36,700 bases of DNA from Candidatus Dadabacteria bacterium (lineage in GTDB: Bacteria > Desulfobacterota_D > UBA1144 > Nemesobacterales > JADFKM01), in contig JADFKM010000014.1 in assembly GCA_022564935.1 (NCBI GenBank), positions 1 to 36,700 of the forward strand, read 5' to 3'. Position numbers and translations under genes: made by a program. Below, piece by piece: positions 18,934 through 35,121 of this stretch (position 1 is the stretch's first letter; every line of letters begins with the position of its first letter). The notes beneath the pieces were generated by a model, which saw only the letters and a program-made list of their open reading frames with translations, was not told the DNA's origin and did no database searches.

Positions 18934-19407
18934 TCACTCCCCTTCTTTAAGGCACGACTTGAAATCGGCAGCCTGATGAGATTCGTATTTCAGTCCTGAT
19001 AGATAACCAACTAGACAATCCATCTCATCGGCTGTGCCCTTAAATCTCTTGCGATACTTTTTCTTCGCCTTGGATTTGCATTCGTAGTCAGTCTTGAAAT
19101 AGGGCTTCGGGTTTTTGACAAACGACCTGATGCTGTCGGCATCTCGTCTTTTCCCGATGTCAGACAGGTCGACCCCTATCTTATCTTCTTCTCCCTTGGG
19201 CTTGGTCTCGACGCCTCTTTCCTTTGCAAAAGCCTCTTTCTCCTTCTGTATTGCGGCGGCTTCGGCCTTTATCGTATGGCACGAATAACACCTCTTTTCG
19301 ATAAACAGCCTCCTGCCCTCCGGCGGCGCGCCCTGCTCAGCCGACGCCACAGCCAAGGGCACAAGAAACGCGATCAATAAGAGTAAAGACGAATAAACTT
19401 GTCCCAT
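18934..19407 (-). CDS. Monoheme c-type cytochrome
   Basis: Signal peptide and a single CYSCH in LFIEKRCYSCHTIKAEA, with a C-terminal cytochrome-c-like LVGYLSGLK. Confidence 0.78.
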   Translation of the reverse strand: MGQVYSSLLLLIAFLVPLAVASAEQGAPPEGRRLFIEKRCYSCHTIKAEAAAIQKEKEAFAKERGVETKPKGEEDKIGVDLSDIGKRRDADSIRSFVKNPKPYFKTDYECKSKAKKKYRKRFKGTADEMDCLVGYLSGLKYESHQAADFKSCLKEGE

Positions 19408-19958
19408 AGCACTTTCCCTCTAAAATTGGTTTTTGGAAGACTTTCATGACACCTGTTGCAAAGCTCGTTCTTAGAAACCGGATGTCGGAGCCTAACATCC
19501 TCATTCTCGCCGGAGGACACGGTTTTGCCCACGGTTTTTTCAACATCCGGCAAAACGACGAATTTTATGAACCTCTTGTTCCTCTCGTCCAATTCGGCCT
19601 TATAAACTACCCTGCCCTTCAGCACCCCCACGGGGTGTGGGTCATGACAGCTAAAGCAGGCGACCTTTCCGTTTTCGTCACCGGGAAGGGGGGAGGCCTC
19701 TTTGCCCTCGTGCTCCCTGACCCCCGGATGGGGCATCTCGGAGTGGCATCCCAGGCAGTTCTCCGAAGGGAGGTCTACTAGGAAGTAATCCGGGCTGCTC
19801 TCAGTCTCTTTAGGGACTTTGGTGTGGCATTCCAGACACACGAACTGGTCTTCGGTCATCTCCTTATGCGGGTTCTCCTCATCCCCGTCCTGTGAATAGA
19901 GAGCCGCAGGAAACACCAGAAGAAGCATAAATATAATTGCCGACAGGCTACCTCTCAT
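19374..19958 (-). CDS. Tetraheme c-type cytochrome
   Basis: Signal peptide and four CxxCH motifs: CLECH, CLGCH, CFSCH, CNRCH. Confidence 0.82.
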   Translation of the reverse strand: MRGSLSAIIFMLLLVFPAALYSQDGDEENPHKEMTEDQFVCLECHTKVPKETESSPDYFLVDLPSENCLGCHSEMPHPGVREHEGKEASPLPGDENGKVACFSCHDPHPVGVLKGRVVYKAELDERNKRFIKFVVLPDVEKTVGKTVSSGENEDVRLRHPVSKNELCNRCHESLPKTNFRGKVLWDKFIRLYSY

Positions 19959-20577
19959 AACCGCCCTCTATATGGCATTTTTCACAAAACGCACTCAGCT
20001 GGTGGCACGTCCCGCACGTCCTGGGATTCGCCCTCGCCTCAATCGCATGGACGAACCTGAAGTTCCTGTCATGAACCCTCCTGGTGGGGAGGTCTCTACG
20101 CTTGTGGCAGTCCTCGCAGAACCTGGGACTGTGGCAGTCCTCGCAGCTCTTTGAGTCAGCCTTCGAGAATACGGCATGCCTCGATACCCAGTCGAAATTG
20201 TGGTTGGGAGGCTGGATTTCCCTGGTGTTGAAATGGCATATGCCGCATCTGTCTGGGGCGATGTTTCCGGCCTGCGGGTTGTAATGACAAAAATGACAGG
20301 TGTCTTTTCCAGGAAAGAAGGCCTGCTCCGAAATCTTTATCATCTCCTCGGGCTCGGTGTACTCGTCTATTTCCACATCAGTCGTGTGGCAGATAAAACA
20401 CCCGAAGCCTTCCTTCTCGAGGACCTTCTTATGCACATCGTGGGAGAACGTCTCCCGTGTCATCCGGGGCCTGTCCGCCTTCCAGCCCCACTCGGGGGCC
20501 TCCTGTGTGCGGCAGCCGACAAGCGCCGCGAACACAAACCCTACAAACAAAATGTAGATAAAGCCCACTCTCTTCAT
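19948..20577 (-). CDS. Heptaheme c-type cytochrome lipoprotein
   Basis: Lipobox-like ALVGC near the N-terminus, and seven CxxCH motifs: CFICH, CHFCH, CGICH, CEDCH, CEDCH, CGTCH, CEKCH. Confidence 0.82.
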   Translation of the reverse strand: MKRVGFIYILFVGFVFAALVGCRTQEAPEWGWKADRPRMTRETFSHDVHKKVLEKEGFGCFICHTTDVEIDEYTEPEEMIKISEQAFFPGKDTCHFCHYNPQAGNIAPDRCGICHFNTREIQPPNHNFDWVSRHAVFSKADSKSCEDCHSPRFCEDCHKRRDLPTRRVHDRNFRFVHAIEARANPRTCGTCHQLSAFCEKCHIEGGYER

Positions 20578-20585
20578 AACAGGCC

Positions 20586-21875
20586 TCAGAAGTAGTAGCT
20601 CACCCCCAAATTCGTCCTGACGTCCTTCTCAAAATCGGGGTTGGTGTTAATTTCAACCTCGGCCCTGACCACAAGGCCGCGGATCACGAGGTATTGTACC
20701 CCCATAATGTAGCTGAATGCGTCCCCGTCCTTATTCGTAACCGTCTCGAAGTTGGCGTAGGCAAAGGAGAACTGGAGGTCCAAGCCCCTCAATATCTCCT
20801 CGGAAACCCCGAAGTTGAAGCCGATTGCCCTGTCGTCTTCGCGGCCGTCTACGAAGTAAAAGCCCTGAAACGTCTTGAGCCCTATCTCTGTCCAGAAATC
20901 CCATGACAACCCGAGCTTGAAGATGTGCCCGCTGGTAGACACCCCCTCCAATACTTCGTAGCGGGCAAACGAATAACTCGAAGACACTTCGAGGAAGCTC
21001 GTCGGATAGTACGTAAGCCCCACCCTCGCCTCGTGAAGCCTGCTTACCGAGAAAATATCGAATATGCGGTCCTGGAGGAATTCGTCCCTGTCGTCGTCCG
21101 GCTCGTAGGTGCTGTACTCGAAGTTGAGGTACAGCGAATTCACCGGGCTTATTCCCACTCCAACCGTGAACAGGGCGAAGCTTCCTTCCTTGAGGTCGAA
21201 CTCGGCGCGGCTGTATACGTCGGCGAAGTCCGTAAACGGCACCACCCTGTTAAAAGCGAAGTTTAGGAACTGCCGGGCCGAGGCATCTTCAGGATCGAAG
21301 GCCTCGTAGCCGAGGGAAATTATGGAGTCCAGGAACTCACGGGATTTGAGTACCACCCCATAAGAGCCAAAGCTCCTCTGAGGCTTCTCGGGGTCGGGCT
21401 GGGCGTCCTTGTCCTGGTAGCCTCCATAAGCGACGACCTCAAGACCCGCCAGCGGTGTGAACCTCAGCATACCTCCGTCAAGGAGCAGGAAATTGTTGCC
21501 CTCGGTAAGCACCTGACGGCCAATACGCAACGCAAACCCTTTGGCCGTATTGCTGTACTCTAGATAAGCGTTGTAGACGTCAAATGTCGTGTCTTCTCCG
21601 TCAAGTACCTGCCTTGAGCGCAAAAAGGTGTTCAGGGACAGGTTGTTCTCCGGGCTCACGGCGCTCAGCTCCAGATACTGGTAAAAGGGATAAAGCTTTT
21701 TGGTAGAGCCGTCCGTTCGTTTAATGGGACTATTAGCCTGGAACACGGTATAGATGTTGCCGAACACCCCCGTTGTGCGGGGAAGTATGGTCTGCTCCTG
21801 GGATAAAGCATCCCCCTCATACACGGCAGCCAACAGAAAAAACGATACAAACAGCGCGGGAAAATTGCTTTTCAT
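20586..21875 (-). CDS. Outer-membrane beta-barrel porin-like protein
   Basis: 429 aa with a signal peptide, many amphipathic strands (e.g. GFALRIGRQVLTEGNNFLLLDGGMLRFTPLAGLEVVAYGGYQD) and a C-terminal aromatic residue (LGVSYYF). It is embedded between cytochrome genes. Confidence 0.75.
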   Translation of the reverse strand: MKSNFPALFVSFFLLAAVYEGDALSQEQTILPRTTGVFGNIYTVFQANSPIKRTDGSTKKLYPFYQYLELSAVSPENNLSLNTFLRSRQVLDGEDTTFDVYNAYLEYSNTAKGFALRIGRQVLTEGNNFLLLDGGMLRFTPLAGLEVVAYGGYQDKDAQPDPEKPQRSFGSYGVVLKSREFLDSIISLGYEAFDPEDASARQFLNFAFNRVVPFTDFADVYSRAEFDLKEGSFALFTVGVGISPVNSLYLNFEYSTYEPDDDRDEFLQDRIFDIFSVSRLHEARVGLTYYPTSFLEVSSSYSFARYEVLEGVSTSGHIFKLGLSWDFWTEIGLKTFQGFYFVDGREDDRAIGFNFGVSEEILRGLDLQFSFAYANFETVTNKDGDAFSYIMGVQYLVIRGLVVRAEVEINTNPDFEKDVRTNLGVSYYF

Positions 21876-22193
21876 CTACTCTTCCACACCGTTGTCACCG
21901 TGACACACCGGGCAGCTATCGAGCCCCTCTTCCTCCACGAACTCCTGAATATCCTCGAGAGGCAGTATCCCTTCTGTACCCGTACGGTTTTCTCTGTGTA
22001 TCTCCTCAACCGGATGGCAGGCGAAGCAATTGGTGCGACCCCAGCCATCCGGATGTTCTTCTTCGGTTAAAATAACTCCCTCGGGACTCTCGAAAATGTT
22101 TCCGAAGTCCTGCCCATCGTCATCCCCACCGACGCATCCGAGGGCCGCAGCAATAAACAGCATTATCAATACAGCTCCCATTTTAGGCATCAC
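21876..22193 (-). CDS. Small diheme cytochrome lipoprotein
   Basis: 105 aa with lipobox AALGC and two CxxCH motifs, CFACH and CPVCH. Confidence 0.72.
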   Translation of the reverse strand: MMPKMGAVLIMLFIAAALGCVGGDDDGQDFGNIFESPEGVILTEEEHPDGWGRTNCFACHPVEEIHRENRTGTEGILPLEDIQEFVEEEGLDSCPVCHGDNGVEE

Positions 22194-22207
22194 AACTCTT
22201 CACTACT

Positions 22208-24445
22208 TCAGTTAGGCCTCCCGATGCGCAGCTCCGGCGGGAGCGGCGGAAAATGCACATTCTCCACCCCTAGCGGGTTCCCTACGCTGTGACAGGCAAC
22301 ACAAGCCCCTTCGGGCTGAGCACCGCCGGGATGGCCATCTCCGGTAAGGGCATCGCCGGCCACTGTGACTCCAAGTCCGTCATGACAGCCTGTGCACGTG
22401 GCGATTATCGGAGTCGTAAAGAACGTATCTAGAACCGTTATAGTTGAATCGTCCTTAGTGAATTCGCGCTCGGTCGTGGACAGCACTCCGGGGCCAAGGA
22501 CTCCGAAACCTAGATCCAGCACGTATGTATCCTGCAAATGGCACTCCTCGCAGTTCCTCCTGTCGCCGGGGAAAAGCACTTCGCCGAAGTCGTTGACGCT
22601 GCCACGGAAACCGAAGATGATGTACGGCTGTTCGGTCAGCTCTTCTCCCGTATGGATCTTATGGATCATGACCTTGAAGTGTATGGCTTCGCTCATTGCA
22701 GGGTCTCCGGGGAAATCAACCGGCCGCACGGCTATGTCGTCAGCGGAGGGATTATGGCAGAGCACACAGTATTCGGTGTTGTTCCTGAGGTTGCCGTGTA
22801 TGCTGAAGTCCTTGGAGAACACGCCATGACAGGCGCTGCAAAGCTCACCCTCAAACGTATTGTCTACAACCATCCGCCTGGGCACGGCCACCGGGTCGGT
22901 CACCGGGAAGTAAAACACTACGTTCTGCCCGGCCTCTTCGACCTCTTCGATCAGGATACGGTCGTCGCCGCCTACTGTTCTGGCAATCCTGCCCTCAATA
23001 CCGATAGCGTAGGTGCCCGTAGCATCTGCGGGTATCATGCCGTCAAAGGTATAGGTGAAGTTGCCCGATGCGTCAGGCCCTACAGAAGCATCTGCAGGCC
23101 TTTCGCGCAGCACATTCTCCGCGCCGGGTGTCTTGAGGCCGTCGCCGTTGTAGTCCTGTATGTCGTAGTCGTTCGTGGGTCCCGCAATAACGAGGCTTAT
23201 GGAATCCATGTCCTGTGGAGTAATGACAGCTCCGGCGTCGGTTTTTATGCTGTAAGCCACCTGAACATGCTCCCCCGGCCCAACAGTGGGAAGACTCGTC
23301 TCGGCGCTCCTAACGCTCACGATTTCAAAGTTAACACCGGGTAGAGATGCTGCGCGCAACAGAACCGTATGGGCCCCATCAACAGAGATGTCGAACTCGG
23401 TGCCCGTAGAAGGCAGGTGACAGGCGGAGCAGTTGTCGTCGTCAAGCTGCACCACGGGGTGGTTCTCCGCGGTGGCAAATACTACATCGTCGTGACAGGA
23501 GCCGCAGGCGGCCCTTGACGGGTTGGTTTTGAAATTGTCCGCCTGGGTCGCAATGCCCCCGTGGCATTTCTCGCAGTTCTTTATGTTCTGTGGGAACTCG
23601 ACCTCGGAAAAATCGTGAACACTGTCGCGGAAGCCTACAATCTGGTAAGGGGTGCCCTCTTGTACGCTCGGCAGCTCTGCCCCTCTGTGAATCTTGTGAA
23701 CCATCACCTTGAGATCAATAGAGTTGCCCGTGTCAGGGTCGATTTGTGGAGTTGTTACACCCGTTTCGGAATCCGTTATCTCAGCCGTATGGCACAGCAC
23801 ACACAGCTTTACGTCCCTTCTGAAGCCGCCGTGGACTTTCAGGGGGTCGTGGCAGGTGTTACAGCTCTCAACCCTCACCACATCTCGAACCACTCTTACG
23901 CCGCCCCCCGAGGGGACGAAGTCAAAAGTGGCGTTGGCGACAAACTGCCGGCCGAGTATTTCGACATCGGCGAATATTCCAACAGTGTGTGTGGCATTCG
24001 GATCAAAGCCTGGGGGCAAAACAGTGTTAAATGTATATTGATTCAGGCCTCCGCCCATGTTCACAAGCGTGCCGTCATCTGCGTTTTCCGAGCTTGCCTG
24101 GGTAGCGGACACGCCCGTTATCGAGCTCGTTTGAACCCTGGTGATGTAGTCTTGATATTGAGTGTCGCCGCTCTCAATCCTGGCGATAATCAAGCGAATC
24201 CTTACGATGCCGCTGTCAATCGGGTTCCCTTCGTCGTCAAAGATACGGAAGGTAATTACAGCTCTTCTATCCGAGTTGATTGAAGCGTCGAGTATCTCGA
24301 TGTTGAGTTTGTTTATAGATGGAAGGGGAGCGGGGGCTATAACGAAATCGCCGTTATCGTCACATCCCAAGGAGGTGATTAGCAATAAGCAAAATACAAA
24401 GCATGGAAGACATATGATCCTGAGCTTTTTATAATTTGCGCTCAT
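22208..24445 (-). CDS. OmcA/MtrC-family decaheme c-type cytochrome, lipoprotein
   Basis: 745 aa with lipobox TSLGC and ten CxxCH motifs in two pentaheme clusters: CNTCH, CVLCH, CEKCH, CGSCH, CSACH, then CSACH, CVLCH, CEECH, CTGCH, CVACH. Beta-rich domains separate the clusters, as in MtrC/OmcA. Confidence 0.9.
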   Translation of the reverse strand: MSANYKKLRIICLPCFVFCLLLITSLGCDDNGDFVIAPAPLPSINKLNIEILDASINSDRRAVITFRIFDDEGNPIDSGIVRIRLIIARIESGDTQYQDYITRVQTSSITGVSATQASSENADDGTLVNMGGGLNQYTFNTVLPPGFDPNATHTVGIFADVEILGRQFVANATFDFVPSGGGVRVVRDVVRVESCNTCHDPLKVHGGFRRDVKLCVLCHTAEITDSETGVTTPQIDPDTGNSIDLKVMVHKIHRGAELPSVQEGTPYQIVGFRDSVHDFSEVEFPQNIKNCEKCHGGIATQADNFKTNPSRAACGSCHDDVVFATAENHPVVQLDDDNCSACHLPSTGTEFDISVDGAHTVLLRAASLPGVNFEIVSVRSAETSLPTVGPGEHVQVAYSIKTDAGAVITPQDMDSISLVIAGPTNDYDIQDYNGDGLKTPGAENVLRERPADASVGPDASGNFTYTFDGMIPADATGTYAIGIEGRIARTVGGDDRILIEEVEEAGQNVVFYFPVTDPVAVPRRMVVDNTFEGELCSACHGVFSKDFSIHGNLRNNTEYCVLCHNPSADDIAVRPVDFPGDPAMSEAIHFKVMIHKIHTGEELTEQPYIIFGFRGSVNDFGEVLFPGDRRNCEECHLQDTYVLDLGFGVLGPGVLSTTEREFTKDDSTITVLDTFFTTPIIATCTGCHDGLGVTVAGDALTGDGHPGGAQPEGACVACHSVGNPLGVENVHFPPLPPELRIGRPN

Positions 24446-30065: not shown

Positions 30066-31454
30066 TTAAGCGCTCTTGAGGATATTGGTAATGTCCGTAA
30101 CGGTCTTTTTAGCGTCCCCAAAGACCATCATCGTTTTGTCATCATAGAACAACTCGTTGTCTTCGCCAGAAAAGCCCGGGCTCAGGCTCCTTTTACAGAT
30201 TATAACAGTCCTAGCCTGGTCTGCGTTTAGTATAGGCATGCCGTACAGGGGGCTTCCCTTTTTGTACCTGGCCGCAGGGTTAATAACGTCGTTTGCGCCT
30301 ATGACAAGGACAATGTCCGTGTCTTTGAAATCTTCGTTTATTTCAGTCATATCCAGGAGCAGGTCGTAGGGCACGTTGGCCTCGGCAAGAAGCACGTTCA
30401 TGTGTCCTGGCATTCTCCCTGCCACCGGGTGTATTGCATAGCGAACCTTTATGCCCTTGTCCATGAGTAGTTTTGCCCCCTCTTGAAGCACGTGCTGCGC
30501 CTGGGCGACGGCGAGTCCGTAACCGGGGATTATTATCACCGAATAGGCGTTTTCAAGCATAAGCGCCGCATCCATGGGGGTGTATCTGGTAACGCTTTTC
30601 TTCTCCTCCTCGGATACGACTCCCGTTCCTCCAGCCGTGCCGACAGCGCCGAAGAGCACATTTGCGAGGGAGCGGTTCATGGCCACACACATAATCTTAG
30701 TGAGTATGAGGCCGGAAGCCCCCACGAGTGCGCCGCTTATTATGAGCACGTTGTTCGATATCACAAAGCCTGTGGCCGCGGCAGCAAGGCCCGAATATGA
30801 ATTAAGAAGTGCAATGACGACCGGCATATCGGCGCCTCCAATGCGAATAACCAACGATACGCCCAGGACTGCGGCAATAATAAATACTAAAACGAGCAGA
30901 AGCCACATCGATGGGTTAAAGGCCATCATAATTCCCAAAACCGCACAGACGACAATCAAAATTACGTTGACTACGTGCTGACCCCTGTAAACAATAGGAG
31001 CGCCGGTTAGAAGCCCCTGCAGCTTCGCATAAGCCACCATGCTCCCGGTCAGCGTAACCGTTCCTATAAGCACACTCAGGACAATTGTCACAACCAAATA
31101 CAGCTCAGGGTTTGTTTCCAGGCGCAGAACCCTCGGCCCCACCTCGGCAAACGCCACTAACATAGAAGCCCCTCCGCCAAGCCCGTTGAACACCGCAACC
31201 ATCTGGGGCATCTCGGTAAGCGCCACCCTTTGCGCGGCGATATACCCGACGGCGGAGCCGATTATGATTCCCACCATGATGTACGGCCAGCTGATTATCT
31301 GTCTGTCCAGCAGGGTTATGACTATAGCTATTAACATCCCAAGCATAGCCAGCATATTTCCCCGCCTGGCCGTCCTGGGGGAGCTGAGCATTTTCAAGCC
31401 GAATATAAACAGCACTGCGGCGACTAGGTAGATTAAATTAGTCTGCGCACTCAT
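30066..31454 (-). CDS. pntB: NAD(P) transhydrogenase subunit beta
   Basis: 462 aa with many TM segments and IIPGYGLAVAQAQHVLQE, KVRYAIHPVAGRMPGHMNVLLAEA, VIGANDVINPAA. Confidence 0.95.
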   Translation of the reverse strand: MSAQTNLIYLVAAVLFIFGLKMLSSPRTARRGNMLAMLGMLIAIVITLLDRQIISWPYIMVGIIIGSAVGYIAAQRVALTEMPQMVAVFNGLGGGASMLVAFAEVGPRVLRLETNPELYLVVTIVLSVLIGTVTLTGSMVAYAKLQGLLTGAPIVYRGQHVVNVILIVVCAVLGIMMAFNPSMWLLLVLVFIIAAVLGVSLVIRIGGADMPVVIALLNSYSGLAAAATGFVISNNVLIISGALVGASGLILTKIMCVAMNRSLANVLFGAVGTAGGTGVVSEEEKKSVTRYTPMDAALMLENAYSVIIIPGYGLAVAQAQHVLQEGAKLLMDKGIKVRYAIHPVAGRMPGHMNVLLAEANVPYDLLLDMTEINEDFKDTDIVLVIGANDVINPAARYKKGSPLYGMPILNADQARTVIICKRSLSPGFSGEDNELFYDDKTMMVFGDAKKTVTDITNILKSA

Positions 31455-31505
31455 AGTATTACTCCCTGGGTATTATTCCCCGGCAATCATGTTCCTCTAA
31501 AAACT

Positions 31506-31790
31506 TTATTTTTGCTTCTTAAACATCCCCAGCATCCTGTCGGTTACCTTAAAACCGCCTACGACGTTGACTGTCGCCATTATAACGGCAAACATGCCCA
31601 GTATCGAGCTGACAACCCCGTGGCCTGAGCCTGCGCTTATGAGCGCTCCGACGATGGTAATGCCGGAGATGGCGTTTGAGCCCGACATGAGAGGAGTGTG
31701 GAGAAGAGTAGGCACCTTGGCTATAACTTCAAATCCGACAAGCATAGAAAGAACAAACACATAAAGTGAAAATACGATGATCACCTCCAT
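31506..31790 (-). CDS. pntAB: NAD(P) transhydrogenase alpha subunit, membrane part
   Basis: 94 aa with TM segments and TPLMSGSNAISGITIVGAL. Confidence 0.9.
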   Translation of the reverse strand: MEVIIVFSLYVFVLSMLVGFEVIAKVPTLLHTPLMSGSNAISGITIVGALISAGSGHGVVSSILGMFAVIMATVNVVGGFKVTDRMLGMFKKQK

Positions 31791-31793
31791 AAC

Positions 31794-32948
31794 CTACTCA
31801 CCTCCGTTATTTATGAATTGATCCACCATTTCATTTACGATTTTACCATCCCTGGTCATACAAGCGCCTCCGATGATCTCATCCTCGAAATCAAGCTCAA
31901 AATCCGCCTTCGGGTACAGATGGTTCAGAAGGTTCAACATGTTGCCCGAATACATCTGGCTTGCATGTACGGGCAGGGCGGAGGCGAGATTGGTCTCGCC
32001 AAAAATGCTTACTCCGTGCTTCTCCACCACTTTGTCCGGCTTCGTCAGCTCGCAGTTCCCGCCCGTGCCGGCTGCAATGTCCACTATGACCGAGCCGCTG
32101 GGCATGAGCTTCACCATCTGCTCGGTGATAAGAACCGGAGCGCGCTTCCCAAACACCGCGGCAGTAGTAATTATGGCATCCACCCTCGGCAGTCTCGAAG
32201 CAATGGCCTCCTGCTCTTTTTTGAGGAACTCTTCGGTCATCTCTTTTGCATAACCTTCCTGCGTTTCGACATCTCCTTCGGGAAGCTCCATGGGCACGAA
32301 CTGCGCTCCGAGGCTCTCGATCTGCTCCTTCACCGCCGGGCGCGGGTCAAACGCTTCGACCCTGGCGCCAAGCCGCTTTGCCGTGGCAATGGCCTGAAGC
32401 CCGGCGACGCCGGCGCCTAGAACCAGCACGTTAGCCGGATGAATTGTGCCGGCGGCCGTCATAAGCAGGGGGAAAAATTTGCCCATATTGTCTGCCGCCA
32501 TAAGCACAGCCTTATAACCCACAACGGTCGCCATAGAGCTCAAAGCGTCCATGCTCTGGGCCCGGGCGATACGGGGGATGAATTCCATCGCAAAGCCGGT
32601 TACCTTCTTAGTCGCAAGGATCTTTATCAAGCTGGGGTTCTCGAAAGGGGAAAGAAAGCAAATTAGAACCAAACCATCTTTGAGAAAATCAACTTCTTTA
32701 ATCTTCCCTTTTGTTTGAGGAGGCTGTACCTTAACGACCACTTCACTGTCTAGGTACAACCCCGAGGGGTCTTTAATCACCTTTGCGCCCTGTTCTTTGT
32801 AGTCGTTATCGGAAAACGACGCCCCTTCGCCCGCTCCGCTCTCAACAAACACAACGTGTTCGTTATCTATCAGCCTCGAGACCATAGCGGGCACCAGCGC
32901 AACCCGTCTCTCGCCGTCAACAGTCTCTTTCGCAATACCTATCTTCAA
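31794..32948 (-). CDS. pntAA: NAD(P) transhydrogenase alpha subunit, NAD-binding part
   Basis: 384 aa with MKIGIAKETVDGERRVALVP, VLVLGAGVAGLQAIATAKRLGARVEAFD, ITTAAVFGKRAPVLIT. Confidence 0.94.
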   Translation of the reverse strand: MKIGIAKETVDGERRVALVPAMVSRLIDNEHVVFVESGAGEGASFSDNDYKEQGAKVIKDPSGLYLDSEVVVKVQPPQTKGKIKEVDFLKDGLVLICFLSPFENPSLIKILATKKVTGFAMEFIPRIARAQSMDALSSMATVVGYKAVLMAADNMGKFFPLLMTAAGTIHPANVLVLGAGVAGLQAIATAKRLGARVEAFDPRPAVKEQIESLGAQFVPMELPEGDVETQEGYAKEMTEEFLKKEQEAIASRLPRVDAIITTAAVFGKRAPVLITEQMVKLMPSGSVIVDIAAGTGGNCELTKPDKVVEKHGVSIFGETNLASALPVHASQMYSGNMLNLLNHLYPKADFELDFEDEIIGGACMTRDGKIVNEMVDQFINNGGE

Positions 32949-34557: not shown

Positions 34558-35121
34558 ATGGGTAAACAAGCCAGAGAGGTTGTGGAACAAGCAGGGATCA
34601 ACGTCGAGGAACTGCTAGAGAAGTTGGTCCGGGCAGCGGCTGCGGAGTTTACAACCTATTACTATTACACTATCCTACGGGTGAATTCGATCGGTTTCGA
34701 GGGCGAGGGCATAAAGGAGATCATCGAGGATGCACGCTTGGAAGATCGCAATCACTTCGAAGCGCTGATTCCGAGGATCTATGAGCTAGGTGGGGAGCTT
34801 CCCCGGGACATTAGAAAGTTTGCCGAAGACTCAGCTTGCCCGGATGCTTATCTCCCGGACGATCCTCGAGACATGAAACAGCTTCTGACGGTCTTGGTCG
34901 AGGCGGAGCGCTGTGCTATTCGTGTCTATAGCGAGCTCTGTAACATGACTACCGGTAAGGATCATAGAACTTACGCCCTTTGCCTGGCGGTACTGCATGA
35001 GGAAGTCGAACACGAAGCATGGTTCTCCGAGTTCTTGGAAGAAGGCCCATCTGGACATTTCCGCAGACGGACACCGGGTCAATCCCCGTACGTGTCGGGC
35101 TTTTTGACCGCGAGATTCTAG
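34558..35121 (+). CDS. Dps-like / ferritin-like iron-storage protein
   Basis: 187 aa with [104 protein letters not shown] upstream. Confidence 0.85.

Follow-up and report, generated by a model that had tools for sequence, protein, structure and literature searches.

The 36.7-kb window analysed here, that is, the whole stretch from position 1 to 36,700 of contig JADFKM010000014.1 (Candidatus Dadabacteria bacterium, assembly GCA_022564935.1), carries a compact cluster of six genes that very likely encodes a trans-outer-membrane electron conduit of the porin-cytochrome (Pcc) kind. The best reading of the cluster is that a surface cytochrome of the Mtr type is combined with a Pcc-sized barrel and a heptaheme cytochrome bearing a lipobox. 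The six open reading frames (ORFs) are all on the minus strand, from 24445 down to 18934, and contain in transcription order 10, 2, 0 (the barrel), 7, 4 and 1 CxxCH motifs, 24 in total, with spacings of 14, 0, 8, -11 and -34 bp between them. The ORF list thus confirmed the place, strand, heme counts and tight spacing given in an earlier note on this DNA, and no CxxCH was found in any other ORF of at least 60 aa in the window. The genes are as follows:

Gene 1, 22208..24445, minus strand: 745 aa, 10 CxxCH, OmcA/MtrC-family decaheme lipoprotein, predicted surface cytochrome
Gene 2, 21876..22193, minus strand: 105 aa, GTG start, 2 CxxCH, diheme lipoprotein
Gene 3, 20586..21875, minus strand: 429 aa, 0 CxxCH, outer-membrane beta-barrel of about 22 predicted strands
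Gene 4, 19948..20577, minus strand: 209 aa, 7 CxxCH, heptaheme lipoprotein, candidate wire through the barrel
Gene 5, 19374..19958, minus strand: 194 aa, 4 CxxCH, predicted periplasmic tetraheme cytochrome
Gene 6, 18934..19407, minus strand: 157 aa, 1 CxxCH, monoheme class I-type cytochrome c

Components of the putative conduit

Judged by its sequence, the gene 1 product is a full-length decaheme cytochrome of the OmcA/MtrC family. It scored 438 bits against TIGR03507 (cutoff 209), covering model positions 7-672 of 672, and matches Pfam PF22113; its matches in the PDB include MtrF (3pmq, 4e-27) and OmcA (4lmh, 3e-26). A lipobox (LITSLGC) is recognisable by eye, and at least ten non-motif histidines are invariant in the alignment. 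The decaheme seems to change faster than its partners, since its pairwise distances correlate with those of the other five proteins at 0.43-0.73, as opposed to 0.81-0.98 among the barrel, heptaheme, diheme, tetraheme and monoheme (both over six genomes, with non-independent pairs), and since two decahemes from the same genus (L022:4021-6276 and L023:10515-12749) are 71% identical whereas their barrels are 92% identical. This divergence may mean that the surface cytochrome evolves quickly or has been exchanged, and a similarly faster change of the outer cytochromes of Pcc systems was noted by Shi et al. (PMC4245776). Directly upstream of one of these decahemes, in genome G001, there is a lipoprotein that combines an EB_dh domain (PF09459) with a cytochrome c domain (L023:12874-14442), which has a leader sequence in common with the adjoining decaheme and is possibly an extra surface cytochrome. 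Its interpretation as a decayed decaheme copy was rejected, as the two have only the leader in common and the protein is of the EB_dh type.

Gene 3 encodes an outer-membrane barrel with about 22 predicted strands, as the earlier note had proposed for this 429-aa protein. Its AlphaFold2 (AF2) model is an all-beta meander with 22 strands of at least 8 residues (predicted local distance difference test, pLDDT, 55; predicted template modelling score, pTM, 0.42). The hydrophobicity difference between alternate residues in the strands averages 2.07, compared with 1.31 +/- 0.21 for shuffled sequences, and none of 2000 shuffles reached a higher value. Moreover, the 50 best PDB folds listed by Foldseek for this model all belong to the outer-membrane barrels (FimD, OccK/OprD and AlgE among them); at such model quality these matches would show that the protein is a barrel, and not which kind of barrel it is. 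The C-terminal residue is Phe. The protein is above the cutoff of no family, its homologues show weak matches to Alginate_exp (best 2.5e-4, six of ten) and Porin_4, no named porin of extracellular electron transfer is among its Pfam and NCBIfam matches, and a profile search of the PDB gave no match. MtrB_PioB (PF11854) was matched neither by the window barrel or nine homologues nor by any other protein of the cluster-bearing genomes, and the surface decaheme plausibly depends on the gene 3 barrel for that reason.

The earlier note had described this barrel as much smaller than MtrB. It is indeed smaller (about 22 strands vs 26-28), but this size is not unusual: the porins of Pcc systems are predicted to have 18-22 strands, and their periplasmic partners carry 5-14 hemes (PMC4245776). 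Since a 22-strand barrel with a 7-heme partner falls within this range, there is nothing new in the small barrel as such. From the strand count, the backbone radius would be about 19-22 Å for 22 strands and 23-26 Å for 26 strands, so that a cytochrome rod could fit inside the smaller barrel, as a matter of geometry only, not of a model.

The two smaller lipoproteins flank the barrel gene. In gene 2 the lipobox Cys (C20) and two extra histidines (H47 and H66) are invariant, and no family was above cutoff in the Pfam and NCBIfam searches; this diheme protein is possibly a cap or bridge of the barrel. Gene 4 combines its seven CxxCH motifs with exactly seven invariant non-motif histidines (46, 49, 95, 126, 134, 169 and 177) and an invariant lipobox (G21-C22). 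It scored 29.8 bits against PF14522 and did not match the DmsE/MtrA family (TIGR03508), and its profile search of the PDB did not find MtrA. The earlier note had the heptaheme and diheme proteins together replace MtrA/OmaB, and for the heptaheme this is plausible.

Gene 5 is above cutoff for PF09699, PF14522 and PF14537 and has four invariant non-motif histidines (31, 77, 83 and 108) for its four CxxCH motifs. Thus, the number of non-motif histidines equals the number of hemes in genes 2 (two and two), 4 (seven and seven) and 5 (four and four), and these extra residues are consistent with bis-histidine heme ligation. Genes 5 and 6 have, by eye, plain Sec-type leaders. Gene 6 scored 35 bits against PF00034 (cytochrome c), and no Met or His is conserved in its alignment beyond M1 and the His of CxxCH. 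A conserved Lys/Arg-rich segment (KKKxRKxFKG-like) occupies the region where the Met ligand is expected, and two further Cys are invariant. Gene 6 would therefore be a class I-type cytochrome c lacking a conserved Met or His as distal ligand.

Conservation in Dadabacteria

All sequence data come from metagenome-assembled genomes (MAGs), and the homologue scan of named genomes reaches close relatives only, so that more distant homologues may exist outside Dadabacteria. The MAG of the window (1.99 Mb, 104 contigs, 88.6% complete) represents a separate family within its order among the genomes searched. The gene set recurs in 12 Candidatus Dadabacteria genomes out of 58, and the six proteins are overall 45-72% identical to their counterparts in other families of the order (heptaheme 59-72%, diheme 57-72%, decaheme 55-60%, tetraheme 47-62%, monoheme 45-57%); the barrel is 50-67% identical to the barrels of nine other genomes. 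The order 10-2-barrel-7-4 is kept wherever the contig is long enough, the monoheme comes next at most of these loci, and the tetraheme gene is present in L015, L016 and L018. The search for the same gene order in related genomes, which the earlier note had called for, thus found it again, with contig ends as the only gaps. Given this identity across families together with the constant order, the conservation of the six genes is far beyond chance.

The barrel was found in 12 of the 41 genomes of the same order, and the heptaheme and OmcA/MtrC proteins each in 11 of the 58 genomes of the phylum. The three mark the same genomes, the exceptions being G021 (no decaheme) and G007 (no heptaheme), both explained by contig ends. 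Homologues of the barrel were found in genomes with the title Candidatus Dadabacteria (CSP1-2, RIFCSPHIGHO2_12_FULL_53_21, RBC041 and CR_Sed_300A), in less precisely named 'delta' MAGs and in HR37, a MAG of the Dadabacteria/Fischerbacteria/GAL15 group (PMC5877337). A full Dadabacteria-like cluster is also present in L029, a record titled 'Ectothiorhodospiraceae bacterium NAT122'. This title is probably a mislabel, since the cluster resembles those of Dadabacteria family f2, and horizontal transfer may be an alternative. In several relatives a small HNH_repeat (PF18780) gene lies divergently upstream of the cluster (L023:14723-15115, L017:12102-12539 and L016:4804-5238), possibly encoding a regulator; the window has no such gene.

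Respiratory context

The gene following the cluster belongs to the NapC/NirT family in G001, G003, G008, G015, G021, G025 and L029. This is the family of the quinol dehydrogenase CymA. Three of these genes were tested against PF03264 and scored 33-43 bits (cutoff 24.1). Their alignment shows invariant C74, C77, H78 and M80 (CxxCHxM at heme 1) and a fourth motif of the form CX4CH, and a hydrophobic segment is recognisable by eye at the N-terminus of the proteins. Rieske, cytochrome b and pentaheme genes are located downstream of the cluster in CSP1-2 and G013, and genes resembling those for cytochrome c maturation follow it in two relatives, also by eye. Two genomes of genus g9 have the NapC gene with an octaheme gene and cytochrome b. 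One of these loci (L061:557-6005) reads tetraheme, monoheme, monoheme, Rieske, cytochrome b, octaheme (HAO-like, PF13447) and NapC; its contig ends inside the tetraheme gene, and the conduit genes of this genome may be on another contig.

The genome of the window contains a pentaheme gene followed by a gene for a molybdopterin/Fe-S protein, a pair that looks like alternative complex III (ActA/ActB). At a contig end of the same genome (G000:C89, L059:4724-8726), an 834-aa lipoprotein with 11 CxxCH directly precedes a coiled-coil porin (Porin_5, PF16930, 97 bits); this is possibly a second porin-cytochrome pair, reminiscent of OmcK/OmcL.

Comparison with known conduits

The cluster resembles MtrCAB/MtrDEF of Shewanella in its OmcA/MtrC surface decaheme, its single barrel gene and its inner multiheme gene, and in the CymA-like gene found in relatives. 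It differs in having no MtrB_PioB barrel, in a 7-heme lipoprotein instead of the 10-heme MtrA, and in the addition of a diheme lipoprotein, a tetraheme and a monoheme in one operon. The MtoABCD/PioABC systems have an MtrB-type barrel and no surface MtrC; the likeness to them lies in the combination of barrel and multiheme cytochrome, and the monoheme and NapC-type partner are reminiscent of Mto. Compared by description and not by sequence, the Pcc systems of Geobacter (OmbB-OmaB-OmcB, ExtABCD and ExtEFG; PMC4245776, PMC6148476) have in common with the cluster a small barrel, an inner cytochrome of 5-14 hemes and outer lipoprotein cytochromes, of which ExtABCD likewise has more than one; they are unlike it in that the cluster has an OmcA/MtrC surface cytochrome and an inner cytochrome with a lipobox. 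In the same kind of comparison, OetABI/ExtHIJKL of syntrophic sulfate reducers and Geobacter (PMC10553843, PMC6148476) also join a barrel to multiheme cytochromes, but the cluster has no rhodanese (ExtH-like) gene and has OmcA/MtrC. Thus, the cluster would differ from known systems in its pairing of OmcA/MtrC with a non-MtrB barrel, in its inner cytochrome with a lipobox and in its diheme lipoprotein.

Conduits have been defined by an inner multiheme cytochrome, a barrel and one or more outer-membrane redox lipoproteins (PMC6148476). Here, genes 1 and 2 (and 4) carry a lipobox Cys, gene 3 is the barrel, and the 7-heme and 4-heme proteins are candidates for the periplasmic multiheme cytochrome; the lipobox of the heptaheme leaves its facing side ambiguous. 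At the level of sequence, all of these elements appear to be present, save for the sidedness of the heptaheme.

The combination had been regarded in the earlier note as undescribed. We found no published description of it in the open-licence literature, including papers on Dadabacteria, and a subscription paper could hold one. However, Geobacter-like porin-cytochrome operons in Dadabacteria had already been named in FeGenie (2020), in one sentence, by BLAST and with the architecture undescribed (PMC7005843).

Proposed mechanism and alternatives

In the proposed mechanism, quinol would be oxidised at the inner membrane, in relatives by a NapC/NirT-type quinol dehydrogenase or a Rieske/cytochrome b complex and in the window genome perhaps by the enzyme resembling alternative complex III. 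The tetraheme and monoheme proteins would carry the electrons across the periplasm, and the heptaheme lipoprotein, in or under the barrel, would carry them across the outer membrane. The diheme lipoprotein would bridge or cap the barrel between heptaheme and decaheme, and the decaheme on the cell surface would exchange electrons with a mineral, a humic or flavin shuttle or another cell. Family assignments underlie the first and last of these steps, and gene order and co-occurrence the middle ones; we infer the assembly into one complex, the protein that would enter the barrel, the localisation, the direction of flow and the substrate.

The conduit proposed in the earlier note is well supported by homology, synteny, co-occurrence and the tests on the barrel, and can be refined by the family of gene 1 and by the NapC and Rieske/cytochrome b neighbours in relatives. 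Several observations weigh against it. The barrel model is of moderate quality, and the AF2 model of the heptaheme, built with seven homologues, had a pLDDT of 42 and was discarded. Position +2 of the window decaheme is Asp, which favours inner-membrane retention of lipoproteins in E. coli, a rule that may not hold in this host. Finally, the window genome has a heme-copper oxidase operon, so that the organism may respire oxygen, and it contains no NapC and no match to the cytochrome b of relatives, in a MAG that is 88.6% complete.

The same conduit could work inward, bringing extracellular electrons (from Fe(II), Mn(II), a mineral or a partner cell) via the monoheme to the aerobic oxidase, as has been proposed for the Mto/Pio systems. 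We consider this rather unlikely, although the oxidase of the organism makes it a rival to be taken seriously; the absence of NapC from the window genome and the monoheme cytochrome at the end of the operon also agree with it, and NapC-type enzymes and OmcA/MtrC proteins are in general able to work both ways. On the other hand, the best-known role of OmcA/MtrC surface cytochromes is the outward reduction of metals, the cluster in relatives adjoins genes of the NapC/CymA-like and Rieske/cytochrome b kinds, and the Met ligand expected of a typical high-potential carrier is not conserved in the monoheme. Outward flow therefore seems to be favoured, with some reserve.

Another arrangement, which we regard as improbable, would have no heme wire: gene 3 would encode an ordinary solute porin, and the cytochromes would act apart from it, at the surface or in the periplasm, to reduce a soluble compound. 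The fold matches to general porins and ushers would suit such an arrangement, as would the EB_dh-type lipoprotein beside the cluster in one relative and the unusable heptaheme model, which leaves no modelled heme chain. However, the barrel gene always lies between the diheme and heptaheme genes and occurs only in genomes with OmcA/MtrC, save where contigs end; moreover, the surface decaheme needs a path across the membrane, MtrB being absent, and none of the six genes encodes a catalytic subunit. A classical MtrCAB whose divergent MtrA and MtrB were missed by the profiles would account for the family of gene 1, but is largely refuted and very improbable: MtrB_PioB was matched by 0 of 10 barrel homologues, about 22 strands are predicted instead of 26-28, and the inner cytochrome, with its 7 hemes and its lipobox, matches neither TIGR03508 nor MtrA in the PDB.

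A more specific form of the preferred reading, the trans-outer-membrane conduit, is that the cluster represents a distinct conduit class, in which lipid-anchored 7-heme and 2-heme proteins wire an OmcA/MtrC cytochrome through a barrel unrelated to MtrB, and in which the distal site of the monoheme is neither Met nor His (Lys, Tyr or open). We put this forward tentatively, as a possibility that falls short of being probable.

Genomic surroundings

The neighbours of the cluster in the window are ordinary. On one flank are genes for a NuoE-type 2Fe-2S protein, a glycerate-kinase-type protein (DUF4147/MOFRL), a metallophosphatase and DnaB, and on the other one for a HerA-type helicase. NAD(P) transhydrogenase genes (PNTB and AlaDh/PNT) are found nearby at 30066-32948 and a ferritin-like protein is encoded at 34558-35121.

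Implications

Dadabacteria are uncultured, and the suggestion that they might reduce metals has been made only in passing (PMC7005843). A conduit kept in three families of one order, together with quinone-linked neighbours, makes extracellular electron exchange directly testable in this phylum, and the cluster could also give a compact part for engineering. The pairing seen here points to an OmcA/MtrC surface cytochrome that is independent of MtrAB and can be combined with a different barrel, which is relevant to the evolution of conduits. If the cluster is indeed a distinct class, OmcA/MtrC proteins would have been recruited to membrane-crossing modules that evolved independently.

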